Source of the DNA: Micrococcus porci
GTDB lineage: Bacteria > Actinomycetota > Actinomycetes > Actinomycetales > Micrococcaceae
DNA: 64,000 nt
Assembly: GCF_020097155.1 (NCBI RefSeq)
Contig: NZ_CP083691.1
Span: forward strand, 620,001 to 684,000
Direction of reading: 5' to 3'
A model generated the notes under the pieces. The model made no database searches. It had not been told where the DNA came from and saw nothing but the letters and a program-made list of their open reading frames with translations. Position 1 is the first letter of the stretch. Each line of letters begins with the position of its first letter. Shown here one piece after another: positions 33,618 to 63,031 of the stretch. The position numbers were made by a program, and so were the translations under genes.

Positions 33618-34136
33618 ATGGGCGACGGCGTGGAAGATCCTGAATCGCAGCGCGAGGCGATCCGCGCCGAAGCATCTCGCATCCACGAGAGCGCCGTCTT
33701 CTCGGCACAGGGACAGTTCGAGGCGGCGAAGCGGTGGCGTCTGGTCCATTGGGGCCTCGCGGTGCTCGCGGCCGGGCTCAGCTCGGGGACGGCCGTGTTC
33801 ACGTTCGCCGACGGCGCGCAGGCATGGTCGGCCGTCCTCGCCGTGCTCGCGGCGATCTCTACGACGGTGCTGGCATCCGCCCGTCCCGACCGGCTGGCCG
33901 AGCGGGCGCAGGTCGCGGGGACCGGGTACACGACGCTGCGCAATGATGTGCGCCGGTTCCACGGCATCACTGTTCCGCAGGGTGATCCGCAGGACCTCGC
34001 CGGGGAGCTCGACGCGCTGGCCGATCGCGCCGCCGCGCTTGACCAGTCCGCGGACCCGGTCCCGCGGTGGGCTTACGAGCGCGCGAGGAAGAACATCGAG
34101 CACGATGGCGGGCAGGCCTTCGAGGCGGACGTATGA
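33618..34136 (+). CDS. SLATT-type two-helix membrane effector
   Basis: Protein of 172 aa. A charged N-terminal helix (SRIHESAVFSAQGQFEAAKRW) is followed by two adjacent transmembrane helices (about residues 41-63 and 69-88). A cytosolic helical tail follows. This is the SLATT layout, a predicted pore-forming effector often encoded next to nucleotidyltransferases. The ATG at 33618 has AGGGGG at -10. Its stop overlaps the next ATG (ATGA at 34133), so the two products are made together. Family assignment is by architecture and context. Confidence 0.7.
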   Translation: MGDGVEDPESQREAIRAEASRIHESAVFSAQGQFEAAKRWRLVHWGLAVLAAGLSSGTAVFTFADGAQAWSAVLAVLAAISTTVLASARPDRLAERAQVAGTGYTTLRNDVRRFHGITVPQGDPQDLAGELDALADRAAALDQSADPVPRWAYERARKNIEHDGGQAFEADV

Positions 34137-34978
34137 ACACCGATCGCGATGCGTGTGCCTATCTGGAAGAGATCCTCCGTGAGGTGACGCCTGACGAGGA
34201 GGCACGGAAGAAGGCGGCGTCTCACCGCGCATCTCTCGAGGACTGGCTGAAGAAGGATCTGGACATCATCCGGATGCGCGAGACGGGATCGTGGCACCAC
34301 GGGACCGCCATCAGCAGGCACAGCGACGTCGACTACTTCGTCACCATGCGCGGGTCGCGCCCCAGTGCCTCGTGGTCTGCTCTGGAAGAGCTCCGGTCGT
34401 CCTTGGCCCTCGGCGTGTCCAGCGCGATCGTGCGCACCGACCGGCCGGCCGTGAACCTCATGTACTTCGACTCCGGACCTTCCGTTGAGATCACCCCGGC
34501 CTACTTCCGCGATACGGATGACTACGACATCCCTGACCCGGGTGGCACCGGCTGGATCCAGAGCAACCCAGCCGTCCACCTCGACTACGTCAACGACGCA
34601 CAGAAGAAGACGAGCAGCAGGGCGAAGAGTCTGATCCGCTTGGTTAAGACGTGGAAGGCTCGGAACTCCGTGCCGCTCTCGTCCTTCTATCTCGAGATGC
34701 GCGTGGCGAAGTATGCGCTTAGCAACCCGACAATCATTTACGACTGGGACCTTCGTTCCTTCTTCAAGAGCCTGGAGGGTGATGGGCTGCGAGAAATGAA
34801 CGACCCGACCAATTACGGCCGCCGCATCTCGACCGGGGCGAGCAGCCTCGTGGACACCATTGCCGCGAAGTACGACATCGAGCAGGCCGTCCGGAGCTCA
34901 TCGCTCGCGCTCAAGGCTGCCCAAGACGGCAATCCAAGTCTCGGCGTCGCGCACTGGCGGAGGCTGTTCGGAGGTTGA
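34133..34978 (+). CDS. CD-NTase-like nucleotidyltransferase (CBASS-type)
   Basis: Protein of 281 aa of the polymerase-beta nucleotidyltransferase superfamily. The P-loop-like motif TGSWHHGTAI spans residues 51-60 and the metal-binding pair SDVDYF has D65 and D67. The third acidic residue is probably E119 in VEITPAY, where Asp is commoner. A C-terminal PAP/OAS1-like helical region follows (SRAKSLIRLVKTWK). Such enzymes make cyclic oligonucleotide signals in CBASS, with the SLATT protein upstream as membrane effector. That the pair acts against phage is inferred from these families. The PLD-like third gene is unusual. Confidence 0.75.
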   Translation: MNTDRDACAYLEEILREVTPDEEARKKAASHRASLEDWLKKDLDIIRMRETGSWHHGTAISRHSDVDYFVTMRGSRPSASWSALEELRSSLALGVSSAIVRTDRPAVNLMYFDSGPSVEITPAYFRDTDDYDIPDPGGTGWIQSNPAVHLDYVNDAQKKTSSRAKSLIRLVKTWKARNSVPLSSFYLEMRVAKYALSNPTIIYDWDLRSFFKSLEGDGLREMNDPTNYGRRISTGASSLVDTIAAKYDIEQAVRSSSLALKAAQDGNPSLGVAHWRRLFGG

Positions 34979-35025: not shown

Positions 35026-35920
35026 CTAGGGCATGTCTGACAATCGTTTTGACCATGCGAGCACAGCATTCAGGACCACAGCGGCCCTGTAGATGATCGC
35101 GTACTTGTCATACCGGGTCGCCAGACCCCGCCACTGCTTCAGGTGAGCGTACTGACGCTCGATGACGTTGCGGCCCTTGTAGGCGTCCGCGTCGAGGCCA
35201 ACGGGGCGCCCGCCGCGGGCACCGCGCCGTCTGCGGTGGCCCTGCTGGTCGGCCGGTTCGGAGATGACCGCTTTGATCCCACGGGCGCGTAGGTGGGTGC
35301 GGATCGCCCGGGAGGAGTACGCCTTGTCGCCCAGCACGGCCTCGGGGCGGGTCCGGGGCCGCCCTACTGGCCGGGTCACGCGCAGCTGCTCCAGAAGAGG
35401 AAGCAGCATCGGGGAGTCCCCTGCCTGGCCGGGGGTGATCAGGCTGACCAGCGGCAGCCCGGTCCCATCGACGAGCTGATGGATCTTCGTGCTCAGCCCG
35501 CCACGGGAGCGCCCGATGCCGTGATCGGCCGGCTCCTCACGCGGATTCTTGTAGTTCGATCCACCCCCCTGTGAGGCGGGTGATGTTCGTCGCGTGCTGG
35601 TGGGCGCGGGCGATCGTGGAGTCCACCGAGACCGACCAATCGATCAGGCCTTCGGCGTCAGCGGCGGCGGTCAGCGTGGCCAGCACCGTGTCCCAGGTGC
35701 CTTTTTCGGCCATGCGCCGATGCCAGGTCCATACGGTCTGCCAGGGCCCGTAGACCTCGGGCAGATCCCTCCAAGCGATTCCGCACCGGTACCGGTAGAT
35801 GATCGCCTCCACCATGGCGCGGGCGTCGGCGAACGGCCTGCCGGCGCGGCCGGTCCGGGTCGGGAGCATCGGGGCGATCAACTCCCATTGGGCGTCGGAG
35901 AGCATCTGGAACCGGGACAT
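35026..35920 (-). CDS. IS5-family transposase, orfA and orfB joined by +1 frameshift
   Basis: orfA occupies 35920-35537. At a GGGGGG tract (35569-35564) a +1 shift enters the frame of orfB (SNYKNPREEPADHGIGRSRG, then GDKAYSSRAIR and AYKGRNVIERQYAHLKQWR with the final catalytic Glu). orfB ends at TAG 35028-35026, which belongs to the CTAG target, not the IS. The reading frame is free of stops in this copy, so it is the likely source of transposase for both copies. Confidence 0.8.
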
Positions 35921-35966
35921 GTCCCCAGGGTCTCAGCTGACTCGTGCATCTATTCTCAGACACGCC
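35030..35966 (-). mobile_element. IS5-family element (IS427-like group), copy 2, apparently intact
   Basis: A 937-bp copy of the element at 31838-32774, in the same orientation, flanked by CTAG (35026-35029, 35967-35970). Inverted repeats GGCATGTCTGA and TCAGACACGCC are at the ends. Together the two copies flank the PLD/SLATT/nucleotidyltransferase module and could move it as a composite transposon. Confidence 0.88.
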
Positions 35967-36962
35967 CTAGGTGTGATGTCCAGGGAGGTTGTTGAGCCTG
36001 CTGGCAGGTGCGGCTCCGATCGCGGAGTGGACTCGGTGATGATTGTAGAAGTGCACCCACCCAGGCAACGCGGCCCTGCGTTCGGTCTCTGAGCCGTAGA
36101 ACTTGGCGTAGGCCCACCCGTCAGCGAGCGTGCGATGGAACCGCTCGATCTTCCCGTTCGTCTGCGGTCGGTAGGGCCGAGTCCGCTTGGGCTTGATCCC
36201 GAGCTCGGTGCAAGCATCCCGCCAGGCATGCGAGCGGTAGGCCGAACCGTTGTCCGAGAGCACCCGCTCCACCTCCACGCCCAGCTGCGCGAAGTGAGCG
36301 ACCGCGCGGCGCAGCACCGCGATGGCGGTCTGGCTGCGTTCGTCGGAGTGCATCTCGACATACGCGAAGCGGGAGTGGTCATCGATCACGGTGTGCAGGA
36401 AGCCCACCCCGAGCCGGGGCTGGTATCGGGCATCACGGGTTCCTTCTCGGTCCGAAGTCGCCGCGCGGTGCTTCATGCCCTGCTGACGCCCGACGAATCG
36501 GTGCCCGCCCCCGTCGGGGATGCGTCCGAACTTCGTGACGTCAACGTGGATCAGCGAGCCGGGGTGGGGGTGCTCATAGCGGCGGATCGGCTCGGCGGTG
36601 ACCCGGTCCAGACGGGCGAGGCGGTTGATCCGGCAACGCACGAGCACGGCATGGACGGTGGATGCCGGCATCCCGAGTTCTGAGGCGATCTGCACGGGCC
36701 CCAGGCGCCGGCGCCATCGGGCGGCCACGATCTGTTTCACCACCGCAGGCGGTGTTCTGGTCGGCATCGTGGCCGGCCGGCTGGACCGGTCGACCATGCC
36801 TGCAGGTCCCTCGGCCCGGAAGCGTGTGGCCCATTTGCGGGCGGTGGGTGGGGAGACCATGAACATCTTGGCCGCGGTGGCGACCGGCCAGTGCTCCTCG
36901 ACGATGAGCTTGGCCAGGCGTAGACGGGCGCGAGGGGTCAGGGCGGCGTTAGCGTGGGACAT
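35967..36962 (-). CDS. IS481-family DDE transposase (copy 1)
   Basis: Protein of 331 aa from ATG at 36962 (MSHANAALTPRARL, with AGGCCT upstream). An N-terminal HTH (PVATAAKMFMVSPPTARKW) precedes an rve integrase core with HVDVTKFG, VLSDNGSAYRS and PQTNGKIERFH carrying the D, D and E. The last sense codon is ACC and the stop is TAG. Both use bases of the target duplication CCTAGG (ACA + CCTAG). Confidence 0.9.
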   Translation of the reverse strand: MSHANAALTPRARLRLAKLIVEEHWPVATAAKMFMVSPPTARKWATRFRAEGPAGMVDRSSRPATMPTRTPPAVVKQIVAARWRRRLGPVQIASELGMPASTVHAVLVRCRINRLARLDRVTAEPIRRYEHPHPGSLIHVDVTKFGRIPDGGGHRFVGRQQGMKHRAATSDREGTRDARYQPRLGVGFLHTVIDDHSRFAYVEMHSDERSQTAIAVLRRAVAHFAQLGVEVERVLSDNGSAYRSHAWRDACTELGIKPKRTRPYRPQTNGKIERFHRTLADGWAYAKFYGSETERRAALPGWVHFYNHHRVHSAIGAAPASRLNNLPGHHT

Positions 36963-37065
36963 GAAGGCCTTCTGTTCGCGTGAGCGGTTTCTTGACAACT
37001 CCACTCTCGCAACAGGAGGCCTTCGCCTGTCAGCTGCTCACGCAACAACGTCCCTGGACATCACA
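35972..37065 (-). mobile_element. IS481-family element, copy 1
   Basis: A 1094-bp element with ends TGTGATGTCCAGGGA on both sides (inverted) and the 6-bp duplication CCTAGG (35966-35971 and 37066-37071), the NCTAGN target known for IS481. Its left target overlaps the CTAG of IS5 copy 2 and its right target abuts the Abi cassette. Copies 2 and 3 are at 43029-44122 and from 63032. Confidence 0.9.
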
Positions 37066-37071
37066 CCTAGG

Positions 37072-38095
37072 TGTACTGCCCGGAGACATTGGTCGAGCCA
37101 GCGGAGCGTGAGGGGGTGTCACCAGCGGCGCTATGCCGAGGGGCCATCCGGGCAATGAGCGTACTTCACCCTCGAGAGTGCTGGCTACGCTAGTCAGCCA
37201 TGGCGATCAACTGGCGGCGCGCCCAATACCTCCTGGCTGAGGACCTCACTGATATTCCGGTGCGTTACATCGACGAATTGTTCGGTAGCAACGGCATCGC
37301 CTTGGGACCGGAGAACCCGCAGGACGTTGACACCTCGGTGAGACGCGCGCGGATGCGCCGCTACCTGACCACTCTCGACCTGGATACCAACCGGGCTGAC
37401 CAGCAACGCTTCGCGGATGTCATGGCCGAGCGCTACCGGAAGATCGCGCTCGTGCATCAGCATGGGAACACCGACGAGACCCAGTGGAAGCTCGAGCGCT
37501 GGACGACCCTTCTGCGGGCCGCCGGATTTCAGGTGGATACCACGGCCCTCTCCGTGACGTGGCCTCCAGGCCCGCAAATGGGGACGCTCGCGCCTGACGT
37601 GCTGGCCCACCTGAACGACCCCTCCGCGATTGAGGATCACCTCGAACGGATCCACACCACCATCGACTCCGACCCCCGGTTGGCCGTCGCCACCGCCCGC
37701 TCCCTGATGGAGTCCACCGCCAAGATCGTACTGACAAGCAGGGACAAGACCTACACGGCTACCGAGTCACTCACCAAGCTCGTCTCGCGCGCCCAGGCCA
37801 GTCTGGGCATGTCACCGAAAGACCTCGGCGGTGAGCAGCCCGAGGTCCGCCGGCTCCTGCAGTCGCTGCAGGGCATCGCCGCCCCGATCAGTACCCTGCG
37901 CAATGACACCAACGTGCATCACGGCGCCGAGGTGGTGCCACAGTGGGTGCGTCCTCGTCACGCCCGCTTGGTCCTAGGCGCAGCGCAGCTATGGTGCCAA
38001 ACGGTTCTCGAGACCCTGTCCGACCCCACCGCCCCGTGGCGTGTTACCGATGCCGCAGCACAGCGCTGACACTAACAACGTCCCCGACCAGTACA
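37072..38095. mobile_element. Transposase-less IS481-type cassette carrying an Abi gene
   Basis: A 1024-bp segment bounded by inverted ends TGTACTGCCCGGAGACATTG (left) and, read inward from the right, TGTACTGGTCGGGGACGTTG. CTAG sits outside both ends (CCTAGG left, TCTAGA right). The same terminal sequence bounds the 6-kb transposon at 57032-63025. There is no transposase inside, only the Abi gene, so it fits a mobile insertion cassette moved in trans. The unequal flanks may reflect the later IS481 insertion on the left. Confidence 0.7.
37200..38069 (+). CDS. Abortive-infection family protein (Abi C-terminal domain)
   Basis: Protein of 289 aa. The C-terminal part (about residues 150-280) matches the Abi_C pattern: DPRLAVATARSLMESTAKIV, a TESLTKLVSRAQASLGM helix, LLQSLQGIAAPISTLRNDTN and VHHGAE, then a final helical HARLVLGAAQLW segment. 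The N-terminal 140 residues are unassigned. Proteins of this group are linked to phage exclusion by gene neighbourhood; the mechanism is unknown. No strong ribosome binding site precedes the ATG at 37200. It is the only gene in the cassette. Confidence 0.75.
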   Translation: MAINWRRAQYLLAEDLTDIPVRYIDELFGSNGIALGPENPQDVDTSVRRARMRRYLTTLDLDTNRADQQRFADVMAERYRKIALVHQHGNTDETQWKLERWTTLLRAAGFQVDTTALSVTWPPGPQMGTLAPDVLAHLNDPSAIEDHLERIHTTIDSDPRLAVATARSLMESTAKIVLTSRDKTYTATESLTKLVSRAQASLGMSPKDLGGEQPEVRRLLQSLQGIAAPISTLRNDTNVHHGAEVVPQWVRPRHARLVLGAAQLWCQTVLETLSDPTAPWRVTDAAAQR

Positions 38096-38139
38096 TCTAG
38101 ACCCGTCAGTGGGTGGGGCCAACGCTCGGGAAGCGCGGT

Positions 38140-38168
38140 GTCAGAGACCCCAGGCAGGGGTCTCTGAC
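38140..38168. terminator. Strong 12-bp hairpin downstream of the Abi cassette
   Basis: GTCAGAGACCCC (38140-38151) and GGGGTCTCTGAC (38157-38168) form a perfect stem with a 5-base loop. No T-tract follows on either strand. It could act as a bidirectional terminator between the Abi gene and the convergent zinc-ribbon gene, or as a protein site. Confidence 0.5.
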
Positions 38169-38271
38169 GGTGACCCTGGTGAAGGCGCGCGGGCGCAGCA
38201 GCACGTGGACAGTCAGTGGCCGGAGTTGATCCCGTGGAGGGCGTCGTCACCCTCGGGGTTGTAGAGATGCA

Positions 38272-38345
38272 GTCAAGATTTCACACGACACGCGGTGGAC
38301 ACTTCCGACATCCGGTGAGGAACCCTGAGGTGTGAAAAGTAAGTG
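38272..38345. repeat. Inverted-arm intergenic element, copy 2
   Basis: Partner of 31725-31790. It begins AAGATTTCACACGACACGCGG and ends GTGTGAAAAGTA. The arms TTTCACAC (about 38277-38284) and GTGTGAAA (about 38332-38339) are perfectly complementary, and differ from copy 1 by paired changes. Confidence 0.6.
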
Positions 38346-40486: not shown

Positions 40487-41242
40487 GACTCAAAACCTAC
40501 TTGCCGTCGGATCCGCGTTCTCGGCGGTCGAGTATCAGCTGGATGCGGTCCGGTGCTACTCGTACACAGCGGGGGGGCAGAAGGTTCGTTGCAGGAGGAC
40601 AAGTCCGAAAAAATTCCGATCGCTGTTCATCGACGCTGAGAGTTTAGGATACTCTCGACGAATTTAGAGTGCTTTGTCGAGTAAAACATCAATTCCAGCT
40701 GCCTTAAGCTCTCGGGCTAGCTCGATCTGCCACCCCTCGCCCTCTATTGAAATATAGGCAACACTGGAGAAGTCGGTGGGGATCTCCACTGAAGGATGGT
40801 TGAGAGCGGCAACCCGGTCCCGTCCGAGAATTCCAATGAATAGCCCAAGTTCGAACACAACATTTTGCCGATCTCTGGCTCGATTATCCTCAGATTCTCG
40901 AGGTTTCCCCTCGTCATCGGGCGTCAGGAGCACAACGGCAAATGCTGCCTGTTGTGCGTGGGAAAGGAGTTTGCCGAGCAGGTCTTGGCCTCGGTTTGGC
41001 TGGTTTGCCAGAACTATGATGTCGCGGTCGGTGACGGTTGCCAGGAAGTGGCGAACGGTCTCACGCCGAGCGAGGTCATGGCCGTGCACCAAAAAGATGG
41101 GCGCATCTGCTGCCGGCTGCGACGGCGACGGGGTCATCGGGGTGTATTGATACACGTCTAGCCGATCTTCAATAGAGTCGAGAACTCGAATCTTCTCTTT
41201 GATGTCAGTTACTACTTCAGGTAGCCGATCCCAGGGAATGGT

Positions 41243-47606: not shown

Positions 47607-48676
47607 CTCTTGGCCTTGCGGTTCTGCTCCCGGCGGGAGGTCAGGGTGGCTTCGCGGGCCAGGTCCGCTTCGGCGGCTTCGGCCCGCGCGGACAGGCGCA
47701 CGCCCTGCAAGTGCTCACTGACCAGCGTGGTGTCGCCCTGGTCAAAAGCGTCGAGTAGGGCTGTGGTGATCAGCTGGTGAGTGTCCCCGAGGTGGCCCTG
47801 GGTACGGGCCCATATCTGTCCTGCCAGTTCTCGGGTGAGGGTTCCCTCGGTCGCCGAGTCCAGGTAGGGCATGAACTTCTTCTCGGCCCCGGCCAGCAGT
47901 TGCTGCCATGCCACGCGCTCGGTGGTGTCCTGCTGGACGGTGTAGGGCTGCAGAGCGAAGGCGTGCAACCGGGCGGCCACCTGGGGGTCCTGGTAGACGG
48001 GGCCGCCTTCCATGTTGGCGCCGACGAGCACGAGCGTGCCGTCGCGTTCGCCCATCATCGTGTTCAGGAACTTCACGTAGTCGAGGACGTCGCGGGCGCG
48101 TGCCTGTTTGGCTCGGAGCATGTGGGCATCGTCGAGGATGAGCAGCTTGACTCCGTGCCGGGCGACGGCGTGGACCAGCAGGGTGGTGTCCTTCGTGGTG
48201 CGCCCCATGATCGGGTAGCCCAGGTAGCTGAGGATCGCGGCATTGACATCGGGGACCTCGGAGGCAGCGCGCAGGGTGATGTACACCTGGGGGATCCAGT
48301 GTGAGGGGGAGCCGCCACTGTCGGTGCGGGAGGGGAGCTTGTCGACAGGCTGGTCGTGCATCATGCGCTGATAGCGGTCTTGCGCGTAAGACTTGATGAA
48401 CGTGGACTTGCCCACCCCGTTGGGCGCGGACAGACCGATGATGGTCTTGGCCCCGGACCGGGCGTACTCGTTGCGTTGCAGGACCCGGTCCATGCCGCGC
48501 CGGATAGCCGCTGTGCGGTCGCAGTCGAGGGTGGAGGCGCACATCCACCGATGCATCCGCGTCCAGTACTCGTCCTGGTCTTGGGTGGAGAGCGTGGAGA
48601 ACTCTCGCAGCAGCACGGGTTCAGGCGGGGCGGGTGCCGGGGTCAGGGCCTGGGTGTGCCAGAGCAGGGCGTCCAT
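47603..48676 (-). CDS. tnsC: TnsC/TniB-type AAA+ ATPase
   Basis: Protein of 357 aa. Walker A is in SAPNGVGKSTFIKSYA (about residues 84-99) and Walker B in LLILDDAHMLRAKQARARD (about residues 170-188). A sensor-type GTLVLVGANMEG strand follows. It forms the regulatory filament between TniQ and the TnsB transposase. The start ATG overlaps the tnsB stop (ATGA at 48676). Confidence 0.85.
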   Translation of the reverse strand: MDALLWHTQALTPAPAPPEPVLLREFSTLSTQDQDEYWTRMHRWMCASTLDCDRTAAIRRGMDRVLQRNEYARSGAKTIIGLSAPNGVGKSTFIKSYAQDRYQRMMHDQPVDKLPSRTDSGGSPSHWIPQVYITLRAASEVPDVNAAILSYLGYPIMGRTTKDTTLLVHAVARHGVKLLILDDAHMLRAKQARARDVLDYVKFLNTMMGERDGTLVLVGANMEGGPVYQDPQVAARLHAFALQPYTVQQDTTERVAWQQLLAGAEKKFMPYLDSATEGTLTRELAGQIWARTQGHLGDTHQLITTALLDAFDQGDTTLVSEHLQGVRLSARAEAAEADLAREATLTSRREQNRKAKR

Positions 48677-50865
48677 CAGATCTCCTGGGCATAGTCGGGC
48701 CAGGGTTCGAAGAGTCCGGCGAGCCCGTTGGTGGCGGTACGGTCCGGCATCGCATCCGGCGGGACGAGACGGAGGTGCCGTCCGCCGTGTTCAAGGTCGG
48801 TGGGGGCCTCCGGGGTGGTGAGGCGGTGGGCGAGGGCGGCTTCGTCGTGGTCGCGTCGGGCTTGGTCGAAGCGCATGCGGGAGGCGGCCATCGTGGTGGT
48901 CCACGTCTCGTCGGCTCGGGTGTGGGCCAGGTGCCCGATCTCTTCGATGAGCTGGCGGTCGATGAGCGCGCCGGTCAGAGCCTTGGGCCCGCCGCGGGCC
49001 CGGATGCGCCGGCGGGCCTCGTCTCGGACGACGTCGGTCAGGGGTGCGTGCAAGAGGTGACGGTTGCGCCAGGGGATCTCGTGGATACGGTCAGTGTCCG
49101 GGTGGCGGAACCAGAGCCGGGTGGCGTCCCTGGGGTCGTAGTGGAACGGGACCTTGGCGTCCTCGTCGCGGAACCGACCGGGGATCTTGCTTCGGAACTC
49201 ATCCAGGACGGCCGCGTCGTAGGTCATGTTCTTGTACTCGACGCCGGCATGGCCGGGGGTGAGCCACCGGGTGGGCAGGAACTGGTAGATCAGATCCGGG
49301 TGCTGGGGGACGTGGATCCGGCCGGTGGTGGCCAGGATCCAGTCGAACATCTCCAGCGGGGAGATATTCACCTCGGGTGCCCCGGGCAGGGTCAGTCCGG
49401 TGTGGGGGCGGCGGTGGTAGTCCAGGGCGATGAACTGCCGCAGCCGCCGCTCGAGGTCGGCTGCGGTGAGCAGGGGTGCCTCGGCCACGACGCCGGTCCA
49501 GCTGCCACGTTCGGAGACGTTCCGGCCCTTGTAGCCGGGCAGCTGCTGGTAGAAGCGCTGCAGGGTCTCGTGGAAGCGTTCGATGTGCGGATTGTCCGTA
49601 GGGCGGGTGCCGCGAGAGTGGCTCAACGTGATCGACCAGTGCAGGGCGAGCCGGCGCAGCTGTTCGCTGCGGAAGATCGATCCGTTGTCCATGCGAAGGT
49701 GGGTGGGCGTCATCGCGGGGATCGCATGTTCACCCAACCCACTGGCGGGGTCATTGGCCAGTGGGGAAGCCTGCTCGGGCAGTTGGAGCGAGGTCGGGAC
49801 CCCGCACCATCGCCAGTCACTGGCGCCGTCCTGATCGATGAGCATCGACTGCGGCCGCATCGCGTCGTAGAGCAGCAGGGCGACCTCGGTGGCGCTGACC
49901 GACTTGGGGAACACCCGGACGGCGACGATGACTCGTGCCGGGACGCTCATGATGGTGGCGATCTCCACGCTCATGGGCTTGCCGGTGAACTCGTCGTAGA
50001 CGAGGTTGTCGGCGCGGGTGACGTCCGTGGCGCAGTGGCCCAGGTGGTGGAGGGCGGCACTGGCAGTGGAGGAGATCTTCCGGTGCCGGCGCGAGCGGTG
50101 CGCCCGGGTGGTCTTGCCCAGCTGCGCGAACCGGTGACTGAGGTAGTCGCTGACCAGCCGCTGGGGCAGGTGGGCGTCGGTGATGCCCTCCGCATGCATG
50201 CGGACCTGGATGCGCCGGTGGATCTCCTGCCGGTTGGTCGCGGAAGCGGACCCGTCGAACCGGGCGAACTCCTGCTCCGCGATCTTTAAGAACCTCGGGT
50301 CCAGGGCGCCGAAGCCTTGGGCGCTGCGCAGGGCGCGTCCGTCCACCAGGCCACGCAGCCCGGAAGCCTGCCACCGCCTTACCCAATGGTGCACGGCACG
50401 GGGCGTGACGCCGGGACTGTCGAGCTCACCGTCCTGGACCCGGCGCATCAACTCCCGGTCCGCGGACTTCTCGAAGCTGACCAGCCGAGCCATCGCCTCG
50501 CACTGAGCGCTCACACTGGCCTGGGAGAACGGGCCGAACGGTACGACTGGCTCATGGGGCTGCGCGAGCGAGGCCAGCCCGCTGCGGAACCCAGTGAGAA
50601 TCTCCAGGACGCACTCCATCTTGAAAATGGCGTCCTGCTGCACCTTCTCCGGCAGCTGGTCCCACCACGGGTGCAGGGCCGCATCCACGGCCTGAGCCTG
50701 CCCGTCGATCGTGGGCCGGATGATCAGGTCGGTCCAGGGGACGAGCTTGGCCGGCTCGTTGATCGTCTCCAGCTCCACGCCCAGGGCCCACATCGATTTC
50801 ACCCGGGCCGGGCCGGCGTCGGTGAGGACGCGGTCGCCGATGTTCAAGTCCACGGAGAAGTTCAT
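48676..50865 (-). CDS. tnsB: TnsB/TniA-type DDE transposase
   Basis: Protein of 729 aa from ATG at 50865, which overlaps the tnsA stop. A long N-terminal HTH-rich region (VTPRAVHHWVRRWQASGLRGL) binds ends. The rve core has the acidic region around DNLVYDEFTGKPM, then HLRMDNGSIF and HIERFHETLQRFYQQLPG. A Mu-type C-terminal beta domain follows. It performs the 3' strand cleavage and joining of transposition. Confidence 0.87.
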   Translation of the reverse strand: MNFSVDLNIGDRVLTDAGPARVKSMWALGVELETINEPAKLVPWTDLIIRPTIDGQAQAVDAALHPWWDQLPEKVQQDAIFKMECVLEILTGFRSGLASLAQPHEPVVPFGPFSQASVSAQCEAMARLVSFEKSADRELMRRVQDGELDSPGVTPRAVHHWVRRWQASGLRGLVDGRALRSAQGFGALDPRFLKIAEQEFARFDGSASATNRQEIHRRIQVRMHAEGITDAHLPQRLVSDYLSHRFAQLGKTTRAHRSRRHRKISSTASAALHHLGHCATDVTRADNLVYDEFTGKPMSVEIATIMSVPARVIVAVRVFPKSVSATEVALLLYDAMRPQSMLIDQDGASDWRWCGVPTSLQLPEQASPLANDPASGLGEHAIPAMTPTHLRMDNGSIFRSEQLRRLALHWSITLSHSRGTRPTDNPHIERFHETLQRFYQQLPGYKGRNVSERGSWTGVVAEAPLLTAADLERRLRQFIALDYHRRPHTGLTLPGAPEVNISPLEMFDWILATTGRIHVPQHPDLIYQFLPTRWLTPGHAGVEYKNMTYDAAVLDEFRSKIPGRFRDEDAKVPFHYDPRDATRLWFRHPDTDRIHEIPWRNRHLLHAPLTDVVRDEARRRIRARGGPKALTGALIDRQLIEEIGHLAHTRADETWTTTMAASRMRFDQARRDHDEAALAHRLTTPEAPTDLEHGGRHLRLVPPDAMPDRTATNGLAGLFEPWPDYAQEI

Positions 50866-51608
50866 CTCGGCTCCCATCGCACCGGCGTGCTGGTTTTCAG
50901 GGGCCGGGTGAGATCCAGCTGCAGACGTCCGTCCCACGCCCAGTGCCACATCGCTGAGATCAGCTCCCCGGAACCGTCATCGGCGCCGAGCAAGGTCCCG
51001 ATGGTGGCGGAATTGGTGCAGGCGAGCCTCTCGAGCGTGTCCCGGAGGTCCGCATACCAGGGCATCGAGTGCCGGTAGCTGGAGAGCCAGCGCAGGTTGA
51101 TGGCGTGTACCTCGGGCAGGCCGCCGAAGAGCTCGTAAGTCCACCCGTTGTGCTCGCACACCGCGCGGGTGCACCGCGCGGCCTCCCAGAACTTGGGGTC
51201 CCGACGACCTTCCGGGCGGACGTCCCAGACCGTGACGGCCCCCTCGTGAGTGAGAGTCAGCAGGTCAGGGGTGTGCCGCCGGGTCCCGCCGCTTTGTCTG
51301 GCCCACGTCACGGTCAGCGGCTGCCCAACCAGCCTGTCCTGGGCGGGATCTCGGTCCAGGACGAGGACGAGCTCCTGCTCCAGCCCGGACTCCACTGCGA
51401 CGACGTCCGTGTTCGTGGCGCTGAATGTCTGCACGGGAACGTGTCGGCTCAGCGCGTGTGACCGCGGGGTCCGCACGGACATGATGGTGCCAAGGTCGGG
51501 CAGGGGGTCGGTGGGGTGGCAGAGGACAGGGCCCTCCGGAGTGGAGAACTCCAGATGGCTCCAGGGTGTGGCTGGTCCTCCGCCGGCGTCACCCATAAGC
51601 TGGGACAC
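50862..51608 (-). CDS. tnsA: TnsA-like endonuclease
   Basis: Protein of 248 aa with a GTG start at 51608. The central region reads VESGLEQELVLVLDRDP, RRHTPDLLTLTHEG and VTVWDVRPEGRRD. This is the E...D...(D/Q)xK-type core of TnsA nucleases that cut the 5' strand in cut-and-paste transposition, with the usual Lys replaced by Arg here. The C-terminal NLRWLSSYRH part contacts TnsC in Tn7. It is the first gene of the transposition operon, and its promoter should lie in the 420 bp upstream. Confidence 0.75.
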   Translation of the reverse strand: MSQLMGDAGGGPATPWSHLEFSTPEGPVLCHPTDPLPDLGTIMSVRTPRSHALSRHVPVQTFSATNTDVVAVESGLEQELVLVLDRDPAQDRLVGQPLTVTWARQSGGTRRHTPDLLTLTHEGAVTVWDVRPEGRRDPKFWEAARCTRAVCEHNGWTYELFGGLPEVHAINLRWLSSYRHSMPWYADLRDTLERLACTNSATIGTLLGADDGSGELISAMWHWAWDGRLQLDLTRPLKTSTPVRWEPR

Positions 51609-57026: not shown

Positions 57027-58013
57027 CTAGGTGTACTGCTCGGGGACGTTGATCAATCGTGAGAACGGCGGCTGGTTGCTGCAGGCCGTGTGGGGGCGAT
57101 GCTGGTTGTACTGGTGGAGCCAGCCGGAGAGGGCGCCTCGGCGTTCGGCCTCGCTGGTGTAGCAGCGGGCGTAGGCCCACCCGTCGGCCATTGTCCGGTG
57201 GAACCGCTCGACCTTCCCGTTGGTCTGCGGCCGGTACGGGCGAGTCCGCTTCGGGGTGATCGACAGGGCCTCGCAGGTGTCCCGCCACAGGTGTGAGCGG
57301 TAGGCGCCGCCGTTGTCCGACAACACACGCTCGATCGTGACACCGAGGTCGGCGAACCACTCCACAGCGCGGTGCAGGACGGCGACAGCCGTGATGGCGG
57401 TCTCGTCATCGTGGACCTCCGTGTATGCCACGCGGGAGTGGTCGTCGATGACGGTGTGGACGAACGCGTACCCGAGCTTCGGCCCGCCGTACTGATTGCG
57501 TGGCTTGTCGGGGGTGGCGGCGCGGTTGCGTCCGCCTTGGAGTCGTCCGACGTACCGCCACCCGCCACCGTCGGGGATGTTCCCGAGCTTCTTCACGTCC
57601 ACGTGCACCAGCGACCCAGGGTGTGGATGTTCGTACCGTCGGATCGGTTCGCCCGTGGCCCGGTCGACGTACGACAGCCGGTTCATGCGCGCCGTCGTGA
57701 GGATGCGGTGAACCGTCGACGGGGCGATGCCGAGCCGGGCGGCGAGCTGCACTGGCCCTTCCCGCAGCCGCATTCGCAGGCTCACGCACCGCTTCGCCAC
57801 CACTCGCGGGGTTCTGTTGGGGGACGACTTCGGGCGCGAAGAGCGGTCGGACATGGGCTCGCCGGATAGATAACGGTCGACCCAGCGCTTCACCGTGGGC
57901 CAGGAGACCTGGAAGCGGGCGGCGGCCTCGCTGATCGGCCACCCGTCGTCGACGACGAGGCGGGCGACCTTGAGGCGATGGCGGGGTGTCAGTGCCGCAT
58001 CCGCGTGTGACAT
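57027..58013 (-). CDS. IS481-family transposase of the 6-kb transposon
   Basis: Protein of 328 aa from ATG 58013 (MSHADAALTPRHRLKVARL). The HTH segment is PISEAAARFQVSWPTVKRW. The rve core has HVDVKKLGNIPDGGG, VLSDNGGAYRSH and PQTNGKVERFHRT. It is clearly related to, but distinct from, the transposases of copies 1-3. The TAG stop (57029-57027) comes from the CCTAGG target, as in those copies. It is the likely source of transposase for the Abi cassette. Confidence 0.88.
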   Translation of the reverse strand: MSHADAALTPRHRLKVARLVVDDGWPISEAAARFQVSWPTVKRWVDRYLSGEPMSDRSSRPKSSPNRTPRVVAKRCVSLRMRLREGPVQLAARLGIAPSTVHRILTTARMNRLSYVDRATGEPIRRYEHPHPGSLVHVDVKKLGNIPDGGGWRYVGRLQGGRNRAATPDKPRNQYGGPKLGYAFVHTVIDDHSRVAYTEVHDDETAITAVAVLHRAVEWFADLGVTIERVLSDNGGAYRSHLWRDTCEALSITPKRTRPYRPQTNGKVERFHRTMADGWAYARCYTSEAERRGALSGWLHQYNQHRPHTACSNQPPFSRLINVPEQYT

Positions 58014-58083
58014 TGGATTCCTTGCTGGGGTAGGCATCGTTCGGGTGAGGGCGTCAAGCGTGAGGAGCAGTCCCCTCGGCGGG

Positions 58084-60375
58084 TCACAGGGCGAGTCGCG
58101 CGGCGAGGGCTCGGCCGGTGTGGGTGTCGGTCGTGGCCAAGTCGGCGGCTGGTCCTTGGTAGGTGATGTGGCCGCCACCGGGTCCTGCGTCGGGGCCGAG
58201 GTCGATGACGTGGTCGGCGGTGGCGATCAGGTTCAGGTGGTGGTCGGCGACGACGACGGTCGCGCCGGTATCGACAAGGCGGTGAAGCAGCCGGGTCAGG
58301 GTGTCGACATCGCTCATGTGCAGCCCTGTGGTGGGCTCGTCCAGGGCGTAGACGGTGGCGGACTGCGCGATGCGGGTGGCAAGACGTAGGCGTTGGCGTT
58401 CTCCTCCGGAGAGGGTGGATAGGGGTTGTCCGAGGGTGAGGTAGCCCAGGCCGACATCGACCAGTCCGGCCAGCGGCGGGCCTGCGGGAGTGTTGGTGTA
58501 GCGGGTGGCGGCGTCGGCGACCGGCAGGCCGAGGACGTCGGCGATCGTCAGGCCGTCCAGGGTGTGGGTGAGCACGTCTGCGGTGTAGCGGGCGCCGTTG
58601 CAGGTGGTGCAGGTGACGGGGACGGGGCCGCTTCCGGGGGCGTCGAGGTAGGTGACGCCCAGGCCGGTGCAGTCGGGGCATGCGCCGGCGCTGTTGGCGC
58701 TGAACATGGCGGGCTTGAGCTTGTGTCCGGGGGTGCTGCCTGCTTTGGCGAAGGCGTCTCGCAGCCAGTCCATGACGCCGGTGTATGTGGCGGGGGTCGA
58801 GCGTCGTGATCCGCGGATGGGGCGTTGGTCGATGACTGCGAGGTCGTCGCGTCGGGGCAGGTTCGTTAGCAGAGATGTCTTCCCGGCGCCGGCGACGCCG
58901 GTGATGCAGGTCAGGACGCCCAGGGGGATGTCGACGTCGAGGTGGTGCAGGTTGTGGGTGGTGGCGTCGCGGATGCGCAGGGTGCCGGTGGGGGTGCGGG
59001 GCGTGAGGTTGAGGGTGGGTCGGGCTGCGAGGGCTGCGGCGGTGGGCGTGTGCGTGTGGGTGAGTTGTGCGGGGGTGCCCTGGAAGGTGATGGTGCCACC
59101 GTCGGTGCCTGCACCCGGGCCCAGGTCGATGACGTGGTCGGCGGCGGTGATGACGTCGGGGTGGTGCTCAACGACCAGGACGGTGTTGCCCTTGTCGCGC
59201 AGTGCGTGCAGAAGCGTGACGACCTGGGCGGTGTCGTGGGCGTGGAGCCCGGCGGCGGGTTCGTCGAAGACGTAGGTCAGGTCGGTGAGGGCGGAGTCGA
59301 GATGAAGGACGGTGCGGATGCGTTGTCCCTCGCCGCCGGACAGGGTGGAGGTGGGGCGGTCCAGGGCGAGGTAGCCCAGGCCGACGCGGGTGAGGTTGGC
59401 CAGCAGGGACTGCAGCTGGGCGATGAGCGGTGCTGCGGCTGGTAGGTCGAGGTCCGCGAGCCAGCGGTGCAGGTCCGTGGCGGGCATGGTGTGGCAGGTG
59501 GTGATGGGGGTGTTGTCGATGGTGCAGGCGCGGGCGGCTGAGTTCAGGCGGGTGCCGGCACAGCCGGGGCAGGGCCCGGTGGTGGCGGCGAGCTCGAGGG
59601 CCTCGCGCAGGCGTGGTTTGAGCGCGGCGGGGTCCTTGGACAGGTACAGGCGGGTGATCTTGGTCAGCACTCCTTCGTAGGCCATGGGGTAGGTGCCGGT
59701 GTCGACGTTGGGTCCGGTGCCGGTCAGGAGGTGCTCGAGCTCGGCCGGGGTGTACGACTGCACCGGCTTGTCGTTGTCGAACGCCCCGCTGCGGGCGTAC
59801 ACCTTCCAGAACAGGGACCCGACGGTGAAGTTGGGGAAGGTGATCGCGCCGTCGTTCAACGACAGGGATCGGTCCAGGACGAGATCGACGTCGAGGGTGG
59901 CGGTGCGCCCGGTGCCTTCGCAGGCCGGGCACATCCCGGTGGCAGCGTTGAAGGAAAGCGCGTGGGGACCGGGCACCGGCGGGGTGCCGTGCCCGGCGTA
60001 GAGCTGGCGCAGCAGGGACCAGGCATCGGTCGCGGTCCCGACGGTGGAGCGGGGGTTGGCGCCCAGGGGGGCCTGGTCAACGACGATCGACGCGCTGAGA
60101 CCTTCGAGGGTGTCGACGTCGGGGCGGGGCAGGTGGGGCATGAGGTTCTGGACGAAGGCCGGGTAGGTCGCGGCGAGGAGCCGCTGGGACTCAGCTGCGA
60201 TGGTGTCGAAGGCCAGGGAGGACTTGCCTGACCCCGAGACCCCGGTCACCACGGTGAGCTGCTTCTTCGGGATGTCGACGTCGACGTCGCGCAGATTGTT
60301 CGTGCGGGCGCCGCGCACCCTGATGACGTCGCGGTTCGACACGGGCTGCTCCTGGTGGTGGGTCGTGGAGGTCAT
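58084..60375 (-). CDS. UvrA-like ABC ATPase (drug-resistance type)
   Basis: Protein of 763 aa, shorter than housekeeping UvrA (about 950). There are two ABC modules: Walker A TGVSGSGKSSLAF (about residues 42-54) with signature LSGGEGQRIR, and Walker A TGVAGAGKTSLL with signature LSGGERQRLRLA. Zinc CPxC pairs are present (MCPACEGTGR, CPDCTGLG, CTTCNGARY). Short UvrA paralogues like this (DrrC-like) are found with drug exporters and are thought to remove DNA-binding drugs. It starts 4 bases after the MFS stop, so the two are one operon. Confidence 0.85.
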   Translation of the reverse strand: MTSTTHHQEQPVSNRDVIRVRGARTNNLRDVDVDIPKKQLTVVTGVSGSGKSSLAFDTIAAESQRLLAATYPAFVQNLMPHLPRPDVDTLEGLSASIVVDQAPLGANPRSTVGTATDAWSLLRQLYAGHGTPPVPGPHALSFNAATGMCPACEGTGRTATLDVDLVLDRSLSLNDGAITFPNFTVGSLFWKVYARSGAFDNDKPVQSYTPAELEHLLTGTGPNVDTGTYPMAYEGVLTKITRLYLSKDPAALKPRLREALELAATTGPCPGCAGTRLNSAARACTIDNTPITTCHTMPATDLHRWLADLDLPAAAPLIAQLQSLLANLTRVGLGYLALDRPTSTLSGGEGQRIRTVLHLDSALTDLTYVFDEPAAGLHAHDTAQVVTLLHALRDKGNTVLVVEHHPDVITAADHVIDLGPGAGTDGGTITFQGTPAQLTHTHTPTAAALAARPTLNLTPRTPTGTLRIRDATTHNLHHLDVDIPLGVLTCITGVAGAGKTSLLTNLPRRDDLAVIDQRPIRGSRRSTPATYTGVMDWLRDAFAKAGSTPGHKLKPAMFSANSAGACPDCTGLGVTYLDAPGSGPVPVTCTTCNGARYTADVLTHTLDGLTIADVLGLPVADAATRYTNTPAGPPLAGLVDVGLGYLTLGQPLSTLSGGERQRLRLATRIAQSATVYALDEPTTGLHMSDVDTLTRLLHRLVDTGATVVVADHHLNLIATADHVIDLGPDAGPGGGHITYQGPAADLATTDTHTGRALAARLAL

Positions 60376-60379
60376 CGGT

Positions 60380-61837
60380 TCAGTCCTGGTGGGGCGCTGC
60401 GGTCTTGGGCAGGGCGAGCATCGCGACAGCCGCAAGCAGGTAGGTGGCGACCTGCCAGGGCATCACCTGGGCCAATGCGTCGCCGAACAGCTCGGCCGGC
60501 GCGGTCGCGGGGCCGGCGCTCGAGGCGGCGTTGAAGAAGACGGTGCCCAGGACGGCGACGCCGACTGCACCGCCGATCTGGTTGACGGTGGACAGCACGC
60601 CGCCGGCGGCGCCGGCGCGGCGGCCGGGAACCCCGGCCAGGACGACGTTGACCAGGATCGGGGCGCCAAGTCCTAGGCCGAGGCCGCCGAGGAACATAGC
60701 GCCGGCCAGGGGCCAGTAGTCGGGGGTGGTGGAACCGTCGCGGACGAGCCACCACAGCAGCGCCTGCGACGCGGCCAGGGTCAGGGACCCGGTCAAGAGC
60801 AGGGCCCGCCCGGCCCTCGCGGCCAGGGCGACACCCGCACCGGAGGTGAGCATCGACCCGATGGCGTACGGCAGGATCACCAGGCCCGTGTCCCAGGCCG
60901 AGCGACCGGTGCCGGCCTGCAGGTAGATCGACACGACGAGGAAGAACGAGGCCAGGCCACCGAAGAACAGCACCGACGCGGCCAGGCCCGCGACGAACGG
61001 GCGGACCCTGAGCAGGTCGGGGTCGAGCACCGGCTCCCCGCCGCGGCGCGCGAGGGCGTTCTCGTAGCGCAGGAACCCGGCCAGCACGAGCACCCCGGCG
61101 GCGAGCAGAGCCCATCCCCACGTGGGCCAGCCCCAGTCGCGGCCCTGGACGAGGGGCAGCAGCACCAGCAACACCCCGACGGCGGCAAGGAGCGCACCGA
61201 CTCCGTCCAGGCGAGAGCGAGCGGCAGCGCGGGAGTCGGGTAGGACCCGCCAACCCAGGACCAGAGCGACCAAGGCGATGGGGATGTTGATCCAGAAGAT
61301 CGTGCGCCAGCCCAGGCCCCACAGGTCGGCGTCAGCCAGCGCTCCGCCGATCAGGGGTCCGGCGACCGAGGCCAGCCCCTGGACGGCGCCGTAGGCCCCG
61401 AAGGCCTTGGCCATGGCCGCCGGCTCAAAGGAGGAGCGGATGATCCCGAAGACCTGCGGGACCATGAATCCGCCCGCGAGTCCCTGGACCGCCCGAACGG
61501 CGATGAGCGCGCCTGCGGTCGGGGCCAGGGCGCACGCTGCGGACGCGATGGCGAAGGCCGCCAAGGCGGCCAGGAACACCCGGCGTCGTCCGTAGTCGTC
61601 GCCGATGCGGCCACCGGTGATCAGGCCCGAGCCCAGCGCCAGGGTGTACGCGGCGAGCATCCACTGCAGCTGCGCTGGCGAGGCGTTCAGGTCTGCCGCG
61701 ATGTGCGGGGCCGCGACCGTGACGATGGTGACGTCGAGCAGGTCCATGAACGAGGCGAACAGCACGACCAGCAGCGCGAGCGATGCCGCCCGGCCGCCGA
61801 CCCGAGCATCCGCTGAGGTGTCTTGAGGAGAAGTCAT
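60380..61837 (-). CDS. DHA2-family MFS drug exporter
   Basis: Protein of 485 aa with about 14 transmembrane helices. The motif A-like GRIGDDYGRRRVF is near residue 85, preceded by ASFMDLLDVTIVTVAAP, and the drug-antiporter motif C region (GLASVAGPLIGGAL) follows. The ATG at 61837 has GAGGAGAA upstream. It faces the WYL regulator divergently and is followed directly by the UvrA-like gene. Export of a DNA-active compound is the simplest common role. Confidence 0.87.
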   Translation of the reverse strand: MTSPQDTSADARVGGRAASLALLVVLFASFMDLLDVTIVTVAAPHIAADLNASPAQLQWMLAAYTLALGSGLITGGRIGDDYGRRRVFLAALAAFAIASAACALAPTAGALIAVRAVQGLAGGFMVPQVFGIIRSSFEPAAMAKAFGAYGAVQGLASVAGPLIGGALADADLWGLGWRTIFWINIPIALVALVLGWRVLPDSRAAARSRLDGVGALLAAVGVLLVLLPLVQGRDWGWPTWGWALLAAGVLVLAGFLRYENALARRGGEPVLDPDLLRVRPFVAGLAASVLFFGGLASFFLVVSIYLQAGTGRSAWDTGLVILPYAIGSMLTSGAGVALAARAGRALLLTGSLTLAASQALLWWLVRDGSTTPDYWPLAGAMFLGGLGLGLGAPILVNVVLAGVPGRRAGAAGGVLSTVNQIGGAVGVAVLGTVFFNAASSAGPATAPAELFGDALAQVMPWQVATYLLAAVAMLALPKTAAPHQD

Positions 61838-61898
61838 GGCCTCACCGTGCCGTCGGTTCAGGACACCGAATGTCCGCAACCCGCGCCATGCTGGTGTA
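61838..61898. promoter_or_regulatory. Divergent promoter/operator between MFS and WYL genes
   Basis: This 61-bp gap carries a perfect inverted repeat GGACA-CCGAA-TGTCC (61861-61875), a good candidate operator for the WYL regulator. TGTAAT lies directly before the regulator start, which has no clear Shine-Dalgarno. Confidence 0.55.
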
Positions 61899-62918
61899 AT
61901 GGCCGATACCTCCGCCCGCATCCTGCGGCTGCTGTCCCTGCTCGAGGCGCGCGTCGAGTGGCCCGGTGGCGACCTCGCCGAGCGGCTCGGGGTGTCGGCG
62001 AGGACGGTGCGCCGGGACATCGACACACTGCGCGAGCTCGGCTACCCCGTCGAGGCCGTGCCCGGTCCCGGTGGTGGCTACCGGCTCGGCGCCGCCGGGA
62101 AGCTCCCGCCCCTGGTGCTGGACGACGACCAGGCCATCGCCATCGCGCTGGCCCTGCAGACCGCACCAGCGACCGTGACCGGAATCGACGACGCCGTCGC
62201 CCGAGCGCTGACGACCCTGCGCCAGGTCATGCCCGCACGCCTTCGCGCCGCCAGCGAAGCCTTCGAGGTCACCGCACTGCGCAACTACTGGGAATTCTCG
62301 GCGCCACCCATCGACGTCGCGACGCTGCAGGTCGTTGGGTCCGCGATCCGCACGAGCTCGTGCCTGAGGTTCGACTACGCAGACCCCGACGGGCGCGTCC
62401 CCGGGCCGGGCGACGCCGACTTCCGCCCGCCACACGACGTCGAGCCCCACCACCTCGTCGTGTGGGCTGGCCGCTGGTACCTCGTCGCCCGCGACCGCAA
62501 CCACGGCACCTGGGGCACCTACCGGGTCGATCGCATCCGCCCCAAGACCCCCGCCGGCCGCCCCTTCACCCCCACCCCCCTCGACCCCGACGACCTGAAC
62601 CGGCTCGTCGTGCAGAACCCCGACCGAGGCGACACCCCCGGCCAGTGGCAGTGCGTCGGCACCGCAACCCTCCCGCTGCCCGCAGACGTCGTCGCCCGCT
62701 GGGCCCCCGGCGGATCCGCCGTCGCCCCCATCGACCGGCAGTCCTGCCGCCTGACGATCGGGGGGTGGTCCTGGGCTGGAGTCGCCGGCCTCTTTATCAC
62801 CTTCGACACGGACCTCACGAATGTCGAACCGTCCGGCCTACGCGACGCCCTCGCCACCATCCGGCGACGCCTAGAACCCGCCCCGCTGGGGGGTCTACGC
62901 CCAACACTCCAACAGTAA
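61899..62918 (+). CDS. WYL-domain transcriptional regulator (HTH type 11)
   Basis: Protein of 339 aa from ATG 61899. The N-terminal DeoR-like winged helix (ARILRLLSLLEARVEWPGGD and LAERLGVSARTVRRDIDTL) is followed by a WYL domain with WAGRWYLVARDRNHGTWGTYRVDRI (about residues 190-215) and the WYL C-terminal extension. It is divergent from the MFS-UvrA operon and should control it, perhaps in response to DNA damage products or the drug. It is the last gene before the right end of the transposon. Confidence 0.87.
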   Translation: MADTSARILRLLSLLEARVEWPGGDLAERLGVSARTVRRDIDTLRELGYPVEAVPGPGGGYRLGAAGKLPPLVLDDDQAIAIALALQTAPATVTGIDDAVARALTTLRQVMPARLRAASEAFEVTALRNYWEFSAPPIDVATLQVVGSAIRTSSCLRFDYADPDGRVPGPGDADFRPPHDVEPHHLVVWAGRWYLVARDRNHGTWGTYRVDRIRPKTPAGRPFTPTPLDPDDLNRLVVQNPDRGDTPGQWQCVGTATLPLPADVVARWAPGGSAVAPIDRQSCRLTIGGWSWAGVAGLFITFDTDLTNVEPSGLRDALATIRRRLEPAPLGGLRPTLQQ

Positions 62919-63031
62919 TGACCGGCACATGCTCGGCCCGCAGGGGCAGGATTCTCCACCTCCTCCCGCACGATGACCTTGCTGGCTGGCGCACAGCCGG
63001 TCGATCAACGTGTCCGGTCAGTACACCTAGG

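Follow-up and report, generated by a model that had tools for sequence, protein, structure and literature searches.

How a single gene of an abortive-infection family comes to lie between transposon ends without a transposase, and whether such a unit could still move, is the question raised by a 1,024-bp segment in the genome of Micrococcus porci. The segment occupies positions 37072-38095 of the window, the 64,000-nucleotide stretch that we analysed (C1:620001-684000 of a 2.65-Mb single-contig genome), and its 20-bp inverted ends bracket one gene of the Abi_C family. With a probability of about two in three, we read this cassette as a derivative of an IS481 insertion sequence (IS) that resembles the mobile insertion cassettes (MICs), carries an Abi_C gene and is moved in trans into CTAG sites by a related transposase of the same genome.

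The cassette and its gene

Both cassette ends match the shared consensus TGTACTGNYCGGRGACRTTG without mismatch, and the same ends delimit a 6-kb transposon in the window (0 mismatches at 57032 and 1 at 63025), as the sequence-only reading had noticed. Genome-wide there are 16 ends of the cassette type at ≤2 mismatches and none for the reversed control, and three of the seven window matches at ≤3 mismatches belong to another IS481 end type (TGTGATGTCC...). The 25-bp versions of the two cassette ends differ at 7 positions, as might be expected if ends arisen by chance or convergence merely flanked an unrelated gene; that explanation is hardly credible, given an expectation of 0.08 matches per window at ≤3 mismatches, a 1,024-bp unit that occurs twice in the genome with both ends, and CTAG directly outside all four edges.

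Between the ends, a tblastn search with the transposase of the 6-kb element found no transposase residue. As the DDE transposase is absent, the cassette is an IS481 derivative and not itself an IS481 element. A larger outer IS481 unit in the window was rejected, because at ≤3 mismatches no partner end facing inward lies between 38095 and 57032, and Rfam gave no match within the window. The only gene starts 108 bp from the left end and stops 6 bp short of the right end; its product matches Pfam Abi_C (PF14355) over residues 193-267 (E 1.9e-11; 44.4 bits against a cut-off of 24). Thus, the description of the segment as bounded by CTAG, lacking a transposase and holding a single Abi_C-type gene was borne out. 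Four open transposases of the cassette's end type are encoded in the same genome, that of the 6-kb element included, and one of these related enzymes would move the cassette in trans into CTAG sites.

The Abi_C protein is a predicted HEPN ribonuclease. The HEPN superfamily has the motif R-x4-6-H; here R234-N235-x5-H241 (R-N-x5-H) is invariant in the alignment, and an HEPN-like model together with fold comparison places a predicted HEPN domain at residues 133-279, so that the modelled protein combines the motif with the fold. The AbiJ profile match is partial, covering positions 169-270 of 281. The protein shares with AbiV and AbiJ/Abi_C proteins a C-terminal domain of HEPN type (Pfam Abi_C; HEPN_AbiV) but differs from them in its N-terminal ~130 residues, which lie outside the AbiJ match and correspond to no Pfam or NCBIfam family. 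Solved structures searched by sequence gave no meaningful match. In the predicted mechanism, the N-terminal part would sense infection and the HEPN domain (residues about 133-279) would cut RNA, leading to arrest of the infected cell.

Elements with the same ends and their cargo

CTAGN followed by the end (≤2 mismatches) occurs in 97 of the 395 genomes of the family, a count that also includes other IS481 end variants; the reversed-pattern control gave one match each in G125 and G130. From the matches listed we picked 37 end pairs in 29 genomes, including the window copy and a second copy of the cassette, and left out one pair spanning 13 kb (G083) as well as most of the simple IS copies of 1.1 kb whose ends are of other variants (G337, G388, G382, G359, G127, G355, G211, G038). 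For L108, L116, L118, L119 and L125 the pair from the search listings was used rather than the alternative from a looser scan. The 37 pairs are not independent, as L106/L107, L103/L120, L122/L124 and window/L022 are related copies. Exact 6-bp duplications flank 23 of the 37. Where both flanks read NCTAGN they are identical in 22 of 29 cases, compared with 2.9 on average and at most 9 in 2,000 shuffles.

Most pairs enclose a nearly full transposase. Six retain at most 67 of its 328 residues (the two Abi copies, L092, L099, L100 and L123), and a seventh reduced element, L109, keeps 138. Transposase remnants persist in L099, L100 and L123; the Abi cassette has none. Other cassettes with these ends therefore exist, in line with the sequence-only reading, and the transposase-deleted L100 and L123 are flanked by exact duplications, GCTAGC and TCTAGG respectively. 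These duplications fit movement in trans and, within a family of elements with such ends, make trans-mobilisation of cassettes of this kind plausible.

Where other cargo is present, it consists largely of regulators with enzymes or transporters, as judged by eye. Of ten cargo proteins compared with Pfam, two are HEPN_AbiV and two are without a match, while the remainder are NmrA-like, alpha/beta hydrolase, FAD-binding, mycothiol-dependent isomerase, DoxX-like (below cut-off) and DUF2268 proteins. In several elements (Table 1) the inverted end and the CTAG target together encode the last residues of a cargo regulator (NVSGQYx) and its stop codon, which is also the case for the transposase.

A HEPN gene is held by six of the 37 pairs, two with Abi_C and four with AbiV. 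In G014, G005 and G149, elements with these ends have a gene for a 246-residue protein, placed after the transposase and before the terminal repeat. Its product matches HEPN_AbiV in G014 (E 1e-30) and in G149 (E 1.6e-31), and the G005 protein is 97% identical. G149 has two 2,854-bp copies, with exact duplications CCTAGA and GCTAGC. A scan of species genomes yielded 15 AbiV relatives. In all six at 96-100% identity (Table 1) the matched stretch is immediately preceded by an IS481-type end, compared with none of the nine at 65-70%; for two of the nine (L167, L173) a single weak end match (3 mismatches) without a partner lies past the gene, and the stretches of four (L166, L168, L171, L174) are truncated on one side or the other. 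The whole 2,854-bp element of Brevibacterium and Microbacterium is 99.72% identical to that of G149, and thus spans Brevibacteriaceae, Microbacteriaceae and the family of the window (three genera). Not all flanks among these carriers are regular: they read TCTAGT/TCGTCG (L160), TCTAGT/CCTAGA (L161, where a second IS481 element adjoins) and ACTAGA/GCTAGA (L162); in L164 and L165 no right end was found, and the left end of L165 is flanked by GTTAGG. These elements thus appear to carry single-gene HEPN cargo recurrently.

The Abi gene might nonetheless serve the element itself, for instance as a toxin-like stabiliser, or be a neutral passenger comparable to the regulators and enzymes of its sister elements, and so have no part in phage defence. 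We consider this rather improbable. It draws on the regulators and enzymes that the other surveyed elements carry and on the open reading frame (ORF) list, which shows no obvious antitoxin-like partner within the cassette. Defence is favoured by the presence of two separate HEPN families on these ends, by genes resembling a cyclic-oligonucleotide-based anti-phage signalling system (CBASS) and a TIR gene nearby, and, as far as names go, by the naming of the Abi_C and AbiV families after abortive infection.

Discussion of how defence genes are carried has centred mostly on large islands, prophages, plasmids and Tn7-like elements. A tentative proposal, to which we give somewhat less than even odds, is that single-gene HEPN abortive-infection defences in Actinomycetota have a dedicated small vehicle in IS481-type elements: AbiV would travel between families together with its transposase, and Abi_C would have turned into a 1-kb cassette that lacks a transposase and relies on the enzyme of related elements, i.e., a phage-defence MIC. 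If IS-sized elements do carry single-gene defences and move them between families, some of the turnover in defence islands could stem from ordinary insertion-sequence transposition.

Two copies and the case for loss of mobility

The cassette is not unique to the window locus. A second 1,024-bp copy lies beyond the window, 71 kb away (C1:728237-729260), and differs from the first at 50 positions (95.1% identity), with the Abi frame open in both and a ratio of nonsynonymous to synonymous substitution rates (dN/dS) of 0.48. Homology between the two loci runs from the left CTAG, past the right end, to about 38297, and the left flanks differ.

Several observations weigh against a mobile cassette: (i) The edge hexamers of the window copy, CCTAGG and TCTAGA, are unequal and form no 6-bp target-site duplication, and those of the second copy, CCTAGA and TCTAGA, agree at 5 of 6 positions. 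With an exact duplication absent at both copies, the mark of fresh transposition is missing, and this is the main evidence on that side. (ii) The 162-bp right flank common to both copies diverges like the cassette (94.4% compared with 95.1% identity), so that cassette and flank were probably duplicated together. (iii) No further full carrier of the Abi_C cassette was found in any other genome searched. (iv) L100 and L123 could owe their state to deletion of the transposase after insertion. (v) The transposase of the AbiV elements is not quite complete, its match ending at residue 318-320 of 328, with the last residues replaced. The exact 6-bp NCTAGN duplications that the sequence-only reading proposed to look for are thus missing from both copies. 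Independent insertion of the copies at the same target was rejected on the differing left flanks and the equally diverged right flank.

Points (i) and (ii) would also suit a dead remnant, that is, a former full IS481-type transposon that lost its transposase and became immobile, the copies having arisen by segmental duplication and recombination at flanking repeats. So would the decayed right end of the second copy (2 further mismatches) and the end of the right homology in a repeat at 38260 that resembles an IS3-family terminus (family assigned by eye from an adjoining ORF in G044), a plausible crossover point. This explanation is possible but unlikely. The left boundary of homology falls exactly at the cassette end, the frame has stayed open in both copies at the dN/dS given above, and the gap from the stop codon to the right end is only 6 bp, with no transposase remnant of the sort seen in L099, L100 and L123. 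For the MIC-like cassette, the present two copies would probably go back to one insertion beside the 162-bp flank followed by rearrangement, because the two loci part on the left precisely at the cassette end and stay homologous on the right up to the IS3-like terminal repeat.

At a third locus, C1:748283, the right flank occurs without the cassette and homology starts inside the CTAG-derived hexamer (CCAGA there); this locus is half of an empty site. L091 was rejected as a full empty site, as it contains the right half only and its left flank is like that of neither copy. No empty left site was found for the window copy, whose CBASS-side flank occurs in its own genome only, one of 11 genomes of the genus. 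The left flank of the second copy is the end of an HNH-like gene (named by eye), which three other species of the genus share at 92-98% identity. Behind this gene, at the same base after CCTAGA, an IS481 of the 35972-37065 type starts in G090 and an end resembling the printed TnRErm46 end in G154; in G014 the homology stops within the CTAG, and no end of this kind follows. The CTAG after the HNH-like gene is thus a recurrent insertion point, used at the same base by different IS481-type ends in three genomes (own, G154, G090).

Fourteen other genomes of the family (15 of 395 with its own) encode more distant relatives of the Abi_C protein, and the 18 scanned stretches around these, some overlapping, contain no pair of cassette-type ends and one weak single match (L148). 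A protein with 93% identity, P0001, which has 114 member sequences, is encoded on a metagenomic contig that at 1,049 bp is close to the cassette in size.

Known relatives and neighbouring features

Most IS481 elements make 6-bp duplications (PMC10045372). ISArsp12, an IS481-family relative of ISPfr21 on plasmid pA2H1 of Arthrobacter, has an end of the same type, TGTACTGACCGGACACGTTG, from which the cassette ends differ at 3 and 4 of 20 positions; it has passenger genes between its ends and a 6-bp duplication, CCTAGA, but comprises a transposase, an ArsR regulator and a permease, whereas the cassette has the Abi_C gene only (PMC6305408). The IS481-type resistance transposon TnRErm46 likewise carries cargo and targets CTAG with NCTAGN duplications, the TAG of the target serving as the transposase stop codon, and differs in its end, TGTTGCGGGTCATGACGTTG, its multi-gene cargo and the presence of a transposase (PMC6794481). 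MICs such as MIC231 and mic-qnrD consist of a cargo gene between inverted repeats without a transposase, and MIC231A1 is reported to be mobilised in trans by the IS231A transposase; their ends and cargo are different, and the target duplication usual in MICs is inexact in the cassette (PMC3913671). As the inverted repeats bracket the gene and the duplication is missing, we call the cassette MIC-like and not a proven MIC.

Searches of the open-access literature, a scope that excludes most subscription papers and all preprints, returned no paper that describes IS481 elements with Abi cargo. The earlier view that such cassettes are little described thus stands as regards defence genes, but not for cargo-bearing IS481 elements as such, since ISArsp12 (PMC6305408) and TnRErm46 (PMC6794481) are in print. 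The vehicle is already known; new are the defence cargo, the single-gene form without transposase and the cross-family AbiV element.

At the left edge of the cassette, the IS5-like element inserted first, followed by the IS481 element at 35972-37065, and the left hexamer was probably ACTAGG prior to both insertions.

Table 1 Location of the cassette, its surroundings and related features (window positions unless a locus is named).
Feature	Position	Strand	Remark
Left inverted end TGTACTGCCCGGAGACATTG	37072..37091	+	0 mismatches to consensus
Right inverted end TGTACTGGTCGGGGACGTTG	38076..38095	-	0 mismatches; starts 6 bp past Abi stop codon
Abi_C-family gene, 289 residues	37200..38069	+	Pfam, alignment, model and fold comparison
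CCTAGG hexamer, left cassette edge	37066..37071		Doubles as right duplication of adjoining IS481
TCTAGA hexamer, right cassette edge	38096..38101		
Right flank common to second copy	38102..38257		162 bp with hexamer, 94.4% (9 differences); from 38099 on also at C1:748283
IS481-family element, other end type, abutting cassette	35972..37065	-	NCBIfam; transposase ORF 35967-37004; CCTAGG both sides
IS5-like element at neighbouring CTAG	35030..35966		Ends GGC[A/G]TGTCTGA; boundaries and family name inferred by eye
6-kb IS481-type transposon, same end type	57032..63025		CCTAGG both sides
IS481 transposase of 6-kb transposon, 328 residues, candidate trans-acting enzyme	57027..58013	-	NCBIfam transpos_IS481, E 2.3e-100
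Regulator stop codon from end and target	L021 15950-16981; L104 2010-2990; L101 2531-3307		
CTAG after HNH-like gene	L022 1177-1243; also L151, L152, L153		
AbiV carriers at 96-100% identity			Brevibacterium senegalense, Microbacterium esteraromaticum, Kytococcus aerolatus, Kocuria sp. cx-455, Dermacoccus abyssi, Gordonia sputi

Elsewhere in the window, PADLOC identifies a CBASS-like pair at 33618-34978 (2TM effector and CD-NTase) and a TIR-domain protein at 40664-41155 as candidate PDC-S35. The cargo of the 6-kb element (58084-62918) comprises, by eye, a UvrA-like ABC protein, an MFS transporter and a WYL-type regulator. At 48676-51608, a TnsB-like transposase (weak Mu-transpos_C match) stands beside a protein of 248 residues that looks by eye like TnsA. 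IS3-like terminal repeats, TGTNGAGATGCAGCGAAGATT, bound a sulfatase-modifying-like gene (by eye) in L022 (2426-3818) and L091 (3444-4836), with no IS3 transposase noticed by eye in either unit; these are perhaps a second set of transposase-less cassettes. In the window, the left-type repeat only is present (38260-38300), ahead of a DUF4379 and nuclease-like gene.
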